A DNA stretch of 64,000 bases from Acetohalobium arabaticum DSM 5501 (lineage in GTDB: Bacteria; Bacillota; Halanaerobiia; Halobacteroidales; Acetohalobiaceae): positions 1,884,043 to 1,948,042 of the forward strand of contig NC_014378.1 in the NCBI RefSeq assembly GCF_000144695.1, in the 5' to 3' direction. Below the pieces are notes generated by a model, which was not told where the DNA came from, ran no database searches, and was given only the letters and a program-made list of their open reading frames with translations. Position 1 is the stretch's first letter. Every line of letters starts with the position of its first letter. Position numbers and translations under genes: made by a program. Shown here piece after piece: positions 22,899 through 50,983 of this stretch.

Positions 22899-23000
22899 AC
22901 TGCCTCTGAGACAAGCAACGGAGGCTTCAAAAGAAGTGTGGTAATTAAGTCTCCGCCTGCTTAACAGGCAACCCTTATTCTTTTAGGAGTGTCCACAACC
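22895..23000 (-). mobile_element. IS200/IS605-type right end with omega-RNA scaffold
   Basis: On the minus strand the tnpB 3' end runs into hairpin GCCTG/CAGGC (22955-22969, which contains the stop codon). A longer GGAG/CTCC-bounded stem follows, and then GAAGCCTC...GAGGC ending in AGTTCAC at 22895. GAAGC...AGTTCAC is also the end of the element at 46489-46520. In TnpB systems this segment is the guide-RNA scaffold, and the adjoining bases (the end of the deacetylase gene) would be the guide. Confidence 0.65.
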
Positions 23001-24148
23001 CCATTATCCCTAATCTGACGAATCATTTCAGGAATACATTTGTCTTTGAGATATTTACGCATTATATTAAGGCTACCGTTCACATCAGCGTTAAGTATCT
23101 TATTCTTAGTTTTAAATAGACCTCTAGTAGTTCGTCTGGATTTATCATAGTTGGTTTTATTTAATGATTCTAGGTCAATAGCCGAGCAACCAGAAGTATA
23201 GGTTTCATTAACTTTAATTAGCTTAATACCTGCTAGTTTAGCTTTATATTCAATTAACTCTACTAATCTTTGTATTGGTATTTGTACGAATGATTTAAGT
23301 GTATTATTCTGCTTAATATTTTTAATATCACCAATTATAATAGTAGATACTTGATTTTGAATTGCTAAATTAACTATTGTTCTACTAGCTTTGTGGAGAT
23401 AATCCTTGATATAATTGTTACGTTTAATTCTTAGTCTTTTAATTCGCTTAGTATCCTTAACTTTGCTAGTACCCAACTGTTTCATTCTAATTCTTTGGAG
23501 GTTGGCTATCTCTTTATTGAAGTAGCTATTCTTAGATTTAATAGTTTTACCATTAATGATATAGCTTTCGGGACTATCTTTAAATGTTAAGGTAGCTAAA
23601 TTATCTAAACCTAAGTCAATTGACATTATATTGTTACCTTGTGGCTTATCTTTAGGTTCTACCTTGTAAATAATTAATAAGTGCCACTCTTTAGAGATTT
23701 TATCTTGCTTAATCCGTACCTGTTTAAGATTATCTAAGTCTATGTAGCTTTAAACTACTGGAGGTAGCTCAAATTTAAGACTGTCCACTCCATATTTAGA
23801 TTTAATCTCCTTAGATACCGATAATAACAATTTACTATCTCTAATTCTTGTGGCTAAGTTGGTATAGATTACTTGATTTGGGTTGTTATCCATATGTTTA
23901 TAATTAGGTGGCTTAGGTTGACCTTTGTATTTATTAGGATTCTCTTTATATTCTTTAAGACTACTAAAATAAGATTTCCAATCCTGTGCTAATTGTTTAA
24001 GGCAATGTTGCCTGTTGTGACTATGCAACCAATCACAATGCCAATTAGATTTAAACTGTTTATCAAGCCTTGTATATATGGGCTTAATATCATTTTTTCT
24101 AACTTCATAATTAACAATGTTGTACAATTTAGAAGTGTGCCAAAAAAT
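22961..24148 (-). pseudogene. tnpB: Broken IS605-family TnpB (in-frame stop, N-terminus lost)
   Basis: Two same-frame pieces, 24148-23753 and 23749-22961, are separated by a single TAA at 23750-23752. Reading through that codon gives a continuous TnpB: SKLYNIVNYEVRK at the truncated N-terminus, RuvC-I SIDLGLDNLATL, RuvC-III ILNADVNGSLNI. The usual RuvC-II Glu position reads IIIGDIKNI, and a candidate replacement Glu lies in VNETYTSGCS, as in rearranged-site TnpBs. No tnpA is present. The first 20-25 codons are missing because structured repeat copy 1 abuts at 24149. TnpB is an RNA-guided nuclease, and this copy is probably inactive. Confidence 0.8.
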
Positions 24149-24554
24149 ATTGATATATTGTGTCACTTTGATGATATTACAGATTATAGTCAACAATCTC
24201 TTACGCTTGCCATTCGTTCGACGTCCTGTCTCACTCATTCTCAAAAACTGACTCTCCACCATCCCTGGTTTCGAGTCAGTTTTAAGAGTCGCTCCAGAGA
24301 AATGTTGACTATTTGCATTATTACAGAACAAAAGTTTCATTGGATTGGTTTTTAACGCTTCCTCAGATAATTTTGCACAATTGAGTTGATATCTTGCAAC
24401 AAGCGACTTTAAAGCAGCCCCAAAAAAGAGAATGATTATCATATAAGCTATAATTTTCAAATGTAGTTATAAGGATAATTTATTGCTGACTAATTAGGGC
24501 TGATTTTCGGAGCGTTTGCAAGATATCAACTCTAAACTGCAACAATATATCAAT
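24149..24554 (-). repeat. Structured repeat copy 1 (406 bp)
   Basis: Bounded by the 13-bp inverted repeat ATTGATATATTGT. In minus-strand sense it has a 17-bp perfect stem GAGTTGATATCTTGCAA/complement around a 100-base loop. A 3' domain (24311-24187) follows, closed by TAGTCAACA/TGTTGACTA and containing AAAACTGACTC/GAGTCAGTTTT. Copies 2 and 3 share this layout with compensatory changes. It abuts the tnpB remnant on one side and the fxsA terminator on the other. The size and multi-stem form recall HEARO/omega-RNAs of IscB-type elements, but that identity is unproven. Confidence 0.75.
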
Positions 24555-47325: not shown

Positions 47326-47752
47326 ATTGATATAATGTGTCAATTCCTATTTGCAGCCAATATAGTTTCATTCATGATATTGCAAATTATAGTCAACAAA
47401 TCTCTTACGCTTGCCATTCGTTCGACGTCCTGTCTCACTCATTCTCAAAAACTGACTCTCCACCATCCCTGGTTCCGAGTCAGTTTTAAGAGTCGCTCCA
47501 GAGAAATGTTGACTATTTACAGCACAAAATTTTCATTAATCTGATTTTAAACGCTTCCCCAAATAATTTTGCACAATTTAGTTGATATCTTGCAAAAAGC
47601 GACTTTAAAGCAGCCCCATAAGAGAGAAATGGTTAAACATATAAGCTAGGATCTTCAAATGTAGCTATAAAGATAATTTATCGCTGGTTGACTAGGGCTG
47701 ATTTTCGGAGCGTTTGCAAAATATCAACTCTAAACTGCAACATTATATCAAT
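47326..47752 (-). repeat. Structured repeat copy 2 (427 bp)
   Basis: It is bounded by ATTGATATAATGT inverted repeats, which differ from copy 1 at the same position on both ends. The 3' domain at 47515-47390 is almost identical to copy 1. The region nearer the inverted repeat carries an insertion of about 20 bases relative to copy 1. It fills most of the gene-free stretch 47190-47821, which otherwise shows nothing. Confidence 0.75.
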
Positions 47753-50499: not shown

Positions 50500-50983
50500 A
50501 GTTGATATGTTGTTGCAGTTTAGAGTTGATATCTTGCAAACGCTCCAGAAATCAGTCCTAGTCACTCAGCAGTAAATAAATCTTAGTGTTATGATTTAAA
50601 GTCGCTCTTTGCAAGATATCAACTAAATTGTGCAAAATTATCTGAGGGAAAGCGTTAAAACCCAAACCAATGAAATTTCTGTTCTGTAATACCATAAATA
50701 GTCAATATATGCTTTCAATAACTCTCATTGGTGATAATCACAGCAATATATTTTATTATCAATAGTCAATATGTGTCCAGAGCGACTCTTAAAACTAACC
50801 CGGAACCATGGACGGTGAAGGGTTAGTTTTTGAGAGTGAATGAGGCAGGAGGCCGAATGAACGGCAAGCGGCGGATATATATTGACTATCCCTGTAATAT
50901 CATAAATGCATACATTGATTATATTAGGTAATTACAAATAAGAAGTATATGTTAAAATATTGCAAGTGACATAATATATCAAT
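50500..50983 (+). repeat. Structured repeat copy 3 (484 bp), inverted relative to copies 1 and 2
   Basis: It has the same order in plus sense: a terminal ATTGATAT-type inverted repeat, a GAGTTGATATCTTGCAA stem, then a 3' domain at 50763-50888. The domain stems read TAGTCAATA/TATTGACTA and AAAACTAACCC/GGGTTAGTTTT, with pairing kept although the bases differ from copies 1 and 2. A 64-base insertion (50699-50762) duplicates the TAGTCAATA arm. No protein is encoded. It occupies the gene-free stretch 50419-51059. Confidence 0.75.

Follow-up and report, generated by a model that had tools for sequence, protein, structure and literature searches.

We found that the three copies of a repeated element in the window, the whole 64,000-nucleotide stretch of Acetohalobium arabaticum DSM 5501 DNA that was analysed, belong to a large dispersed family built around a folded core. 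Our preferred reading, which we hold with about even confidence, is a REPIN-like non-autonomous mobile family whose essential part would be this core, folding as one strand. The comparison of aligned copies strongly supports that the fold was retained for a long time while its letters changed, and that selection acts on folded RNA or single-stranded DNA.

The original prediction of a three-copy element with terminal inverted repeats, an internal stem and a 3' domain was confirmed, and all three copies have the outer limits TTGA..TCAA. The copies and their parts are as follows.

24150..24553, no strand: copy 1, complete composite element between terminal repeats
24150..24165, plus strand: terminal inverted repeat of copy 1, TTGATATATTGTGTCA
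24188..24311, minus strand (the sense strand): folded core (INNER) of copy 1, P1-P2/P3-P4, 137.8 bits with model R1
24385..24530, plus strand: STEM module of copy 1, the second structured module, GTTGATATCTTGCAA...TTGCAAGATATCAAC, paired GCAGCCC/GGGCTG
24538..24553, minus strand: terminal inverted repeat of copy 1, TTGATATATTGTTGCA
47327..47751, no strand: copy 2, complete composite element
47391..47515, minus strand: folded core of copy 2, R1 145.3 bits
47581..47728, plus strand: STEM module of copy 2, weak R1 match (26.2 bits, E 7e-4)
50502..50982, opposite overall orientation: copy 3, complete composite element
50525..50623, minus strand: STEM module of copy 3, shortened (99 nt), R1 32.5 bits, E 2e-5
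50763..50887, plus strand: folded core of copy 3, R1 147.2 bits
22961..24148, minus strand: broken IS605 OrfB/tnpB gene adjoining copy 1, outside the element (OrfB_IS605 2e-19, Cas12f1-like_TNB 3e-11)

The three paired substitutions were found exactly as claimed, two in the main stem and one in the closing stem. The claim that no transposase accompanies any copy fails for copy 1, which the broken tnpB gene adjoins; tnpB does not recur at the other copies. The Pfam match of this remnant spans 22961-23626 only, and its N-terminal part is lost at the element side. The tnpB remnant at copy 1 is a single case. No recurrent protein family was found beside the copies, where only housekeeping paralogues (ABC transporters, response regulators) recur.

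The suggested resemblance to HEARO/omega-RNA elements found no support: the HEARO model (RF02033) matched neither own nor related copies when Rfam was scanned with E limits as loose as 1-10, and no neighbouring protein recurs. Like the HEARO/IscB omega-RNAs, the family is structured, non-coding and dispersed without a gene. Unlike them, it has no Rfam match and no IscB association among the proteins beside the copies. Rfam scans at family thresholds likewise gave no matching family for the core.

The core of about 125 nt consists of an outer stem, P1, that encloses the hairpins P2/P3 and P4. P3 carries an AYGGAY-type loop in most copies, with GGA on either side as read from the sequences, and P4 has two tandem G·A steps between Watson-Crick pairs and a loop AGGAY or ACGGAY. 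To evaluate this fold, a hand-drawn structure of 35 pairs (P1 15, P2 10, P3 3, P4 7) was compared with two alignments. In the first (A1, MAFFT, 31 core sequences from five genomes), the structure was 93.7% paired, two-sided changes occurred at 24/35 pairs, and covariation was 0.456 versus 0.05-0.10 when the partners were slid by 1-3 columns. The second (A3, 107 distinct sequences) was fitted to the model and hence leans towards structure; it gave 96.4% paired, two-sided changes at 34 of the 35 pairs, and covariation of 0.685 versus 0.07-0.10 with slid partners. Uncorrelated stem changes in further copies had been named as a possible refutation, and the stems of these copies covary instead.

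Imperfect pairs were counted on the strand with GAGCGACTC. We found 115 G·U and 18 A·C, with G·U in 30/35 pair columns versus A·C in 13. This excess says which strand folds, and alone it cannot separate RNA from single-stranded DNA. Each core also folds far better than its shuffled versions (z of -5.7 to -8.4 for the sense strand), and to a similar degree on the complementary strand; the core is quasi-palindromic and gives matches on both strands. Together, the covariation and the G·U excess strongly support the predicted selection on a folded RNA or DNA, not on protein.

The stems differ in other genera of the own family. Examples of the closing stem are TAGTCAATATACCTC/GAGGTATATTGAC and GTTGATATGTTTCAA/TTGAAACATATCAAC, and the second stem reads AAACAGTTT/AAACTGTTT, CAGCCT/AGGCTG or TAGCCC/GGGCTA. 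In the STEM module, GCAGYCC and GGRCTG likewise change as a pair; the module matches the core model weakly, so that it is probably a relative without P4.

Paired changes would not need selection if one arm of a quasi-palindrome were copied from the other (hairpin correction). The quasi-palindromic core would allow this for its long arms, P1 and P2 among them. However, covariation extends to the short helices P3 and P4, the G·A steps and loop letters are fixed, and the imperfect pairs are G·U, not A·C, on one strand. We therefore regard this already disfavoured explanation as very improbable.

The genome of A. arabaticum, a single contig of 2,469,596 bases in which the window spans 1,884,043-1,948,042, contains many more copies. 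Searched at the DNA level, copy 1 matched 64 segments, and pattern searches gave 113 sites for the STEM motif and 103 for the terminal repeat. A whole-genome search with a covariance model found the core at 95 places, far beyond three copies; about 67 are near full length, and a few places were counted via both strands. From 63 retrieved stretches, 59 elements were resolved with terminal inverted repeats on both sides. The elements are 0.3-0.7 kb long, mostly extragenic and non-coding. They are mosaics of terminal repeats, INNER core, linker and STEM module, in which the core occurs in either orientation, once or twice, with an extra domain in some. Core and STEM module usually stand back to back. 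Four 532-bp elements (L036, L040, L072, L073) agree in module layout and core score but have unrelated flanks, which suggests recent movement. The common layout with unrelated flanks shows that the elements are dispersed and mobile.

Several copies carry further parts. About twenty own copies have a domain of about 100 nt in place of the P3 loop, and an extra hairpin after AGCGACT is common to some copies of INNER and of STEM. This hairpin domain, of the GCGCTAACCGCAAC.TCCTG type, was seen in both modules (L039, L092, L034, L075, L088). A second dispersed hairpin module, CAGCCTGGGAAGTTTCTCCG...AACCCAG(G/A)CTG, adjoins cores or a terminal repeat (L249, L250, L254, L116). An IS3-like insertion sequence of about 1.3 kb, recognised by eye from open reading frames, lies inside two elements (L049 1600-2940, L088 1440-2790). 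It was considered as an autonomous partner with matching ends and rejected as a passenger.

The element ends are of the TTGATATATTGTG(T)CA/TTGTTGCA type with sharp boundaries, A|TTGATAT...ATATCAA|T. The insertion site is palindromic and AT-rich, with the target consensus TRAAAYTWWA|TTGATAT; the weak flank consensus TRAAAYTWWA is read outwards, and 84% of the ends have T at -10 and 95% have A at -1. We found no target-site duplication, as there was no consistent left-right identity excess at lengths 1-39 in the 59 elements. The terminal repeats had been described as changing in step at both ends. This holds for copies 1 and 2, but not in general: where copies 1 and 2 differ, the two ends of the 59 elements are T/T in 33, T/A in 13, A/T in 7 and A/A in 6. 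The terminal repeats lie outside the covarying fold and are not co-varying partners. The ends were also considered as a 26-bp dyad, TGCAACTATAT-TGAT-ATATTGTTGCA, of a tyrosine recombinase; this reading was rejected, since the central bases, which do not vary at either end, misfit a simple conservative exchange.

Such ends raise the alternative that the elements are common MITEs with terminal repeats, that a DDE transposase acting in trans moves them, and that the core is a passenger brought in by nested insertion. Like bacterial MITEs, the elements are of 0.3-0.7 kb, mostly extragenic and non-coding, and their terminal inverted repeats are clear. Moreover, some cores of the own genome lie outside such ends, and two genomes of the sister family f2 (G006, G009) have short elements whose ends are of the same family. 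These elements, many and about 110-150 bp long (L131-L145), have the ends TTGATATATAGTGTCA and TTACAATTATGTGTCA; their flanks are alike and their interiors unrelated, and both genomes are without the core. However, the family differs from bacterial MITEs in that no target duplication was detected and the core covaries strongly. The core also persists in other families without these ends, and passenger status leaves covariation over such distances unexplained. The one candidate longer element that was tested, a long end-to-end pair in G006, contains host genes only and was rejected as an autonomous element. We consider this explanation unlikely.

To determine the distribution of the core, 199 related genomes were searched, and it was found in 16 genomes of 14 genera. 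All five genomes of the own family carry it and none of the eight of sister family f2 does, and scattered carriers occur in families f3, f4, f6, f7 and f50, with some copies at 60% GC. DNA identity to the core in other genera of the own family is 71-89%. The closed 3.93 Mb genome G030 has 73 core places and G014 has seven; nine copies in G097 are among those listed. The surroundings of the core vary among genomes: the P1 sequence, the leaders and the outer repeats are all different. Pattern scans of GTDB genomes and IMG/VR gave few matches, including putative ones in Herbaspirillum and an Acidobacteria bin. One core copy adjoins a tRNA, and another (L156, G138) separates a 23S from a 5S rRNA gene and shares their strand.

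Among known motifs, TwoAYGGAY (RF01731, clan CL00106) is the nearest by architecture. This is a likeness of topology and a putative relation: both have a variable stem on the outside, a pair of hairpins whose loops are of the (A)YGGAY kind, and tandem G·A (PMC4333381). The best RF01731 match in the own genome is 26.1 bits versus a threshold of 43, in one copy and with a shifted alignment, and window copy 3 gave no match at E 10. In G014, a core carrier, RF01731 matches of 51.7 and 27.7 bits (L207, L209) lie in dispersed palindromic repeats of about 200 bp. Since these matches form a dispersed palindromic repeat, TwoAYGGAY may itself be a mobile repeat.

This likeness brings in a further alternative, namely that the core is a CsrA/RsmA-binding RNA spread by mobile elements, in which two GGA-loop hairpins sequester CsrA. 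The loops AYGGAY and ACAGGAYGU resemble CsrA sites. Most core-bearing genomes have one csrA, the sub-threshold RF01731 match of the own copy fits such a relation, and CsrA binding was proposed for TwoAYGGAY, in which the tandem G·A was reported (PMC4333381). However, G097 has CsrA only below the cut-off and G138 has none, yet their core loops retain GGA, and the eight f2 genomes all have csrA and lack the core. The cores of the own genome also show no bias to the transcribed direction. We consider this explanation rather improbable. As a necessary partner, CsrA was rejected on these grounds and on its absence from G054. The persistence of the loop sequences across families could nevertheless reflect a cellular RNA-binding partner instead.

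The orientation of the core was compared with genes and with replication. In the own genome, 23 cores lie with the neighbouring genes, 20 against and 12 mixed, indicating no bias, and no replichore bias was found there. In G030, 65/73 cores lie against the direction of replication (Fisher p about 5e-11), including all of the first 17 copies (17/17). Some of the exceptions are a second core subtype, divergent to the first within one composite. Composites that pair two different core subtypes divergently were seen at L280, L285, L286 and L301 of G030, and divergent pairs of structured modules occur in the own genome as well. Gene direction in G030 is confounded with replication; among the few loci with head-on genes, three (L151, L268, L284) follow replication. 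In G003/G004, 8/8 flanks have the opposite skew sign, and G002, G014, G097 and the own genome are mixed, so a universal replication-strand rule was rejected. The strand bias is real in single lineages, lineage-specific and no rule. Because its sign flips among lineages, it is lacking in the own genome, and gene direction largely confounds it in G030, it is no proof of a single-strand mechanism.

The missing orientation bias to genes in the own genome, together with the missing associated protein, also counts against the alternative that the element has its own structured RNA, a guide or something like a ribozyme, that acts in trans in its mobility. The preference for G·U would fit such an RNA, and so would the peripheral domains, which both modules carry at fixed places of the core (the P3 loop and after AGCGACT) in the manner of large structured RNAs. 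Weighing both sides, we give it a slim chance. The broader proposal is that the core represents a new structured-RNA class, which acts in trans for its own element (as guide, catalyst or protein scaffold) and is the common part of gene-less mobile elements widespread among Halanaerobiales-like Firmicutes and related bacteria; it appears to us quite improbable.

We return to the REPIN-like reading. REPINs are short, non-autonomous, dispersed hairpins of single-stranded DNA or RNA with nested or adjacent insertions (PMC3116915). The family resembles REPIN/REP with RAYT (TnpA_REP) in its dispersed non-autonomous extragenic hairpins, its nesting and its inverted module pairs; cores within or adjoining other cores were found in the own genome and G097. 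It differs in that its fold is far larger, resembles that of an RNA and has two GGA hairpins, and in the long terminal repeats of its composites. A Y1 transposase (IS200/RAYT type) was rejected as a necessary partner, since it is absent from the core carriers G001, G097 and G138. As the RAYT link fails in these genomes, we keep the family apart from REPINs proper.

Four sets of observations support the REPIN-like reading: the 95 places, the four 532-bp elements with unrelated flanks, the sharp ends and the lack of a detected target duplication; the covariation and G·U excess on one strand; the core in 16/199 genomes while P1 and the surroundings differ; and the nested or adjacent cores, divergent module pairs and lineage-specific strand bias. 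Against it count the lack of Y1 in three carriers, the lack of a recurrent neighbour protein, the fact that no mobilising enzyme was found, the strand bias that changes sign among lineages, and the cellular RNA-binding partner that the persistent loop sequences may reflect. In the proposed mechanism, the core would fold as a single strand, either as DNA exposed at replication or as RNA. An enzyme supplied in trans would recognise the folded strand, and the element would thereby be moved or copied. Composites of core and STEM would insert at AT-rich palindromic sites, leaving no detectable target duplication.

Taken together, these results suggest that the family is a little-known kind of mobile element whose action depends on folding. 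It is a rare case of a fold kept across many genera, outside the Rfam families, in gene-less repeats at 70-95 places per genome. It raises the question whether TwoAYGGAY and its CsrA hypothesis really concern mobile elements, and it offers a concrete system for how non-autonomous repeats spread without a transposase in sight.
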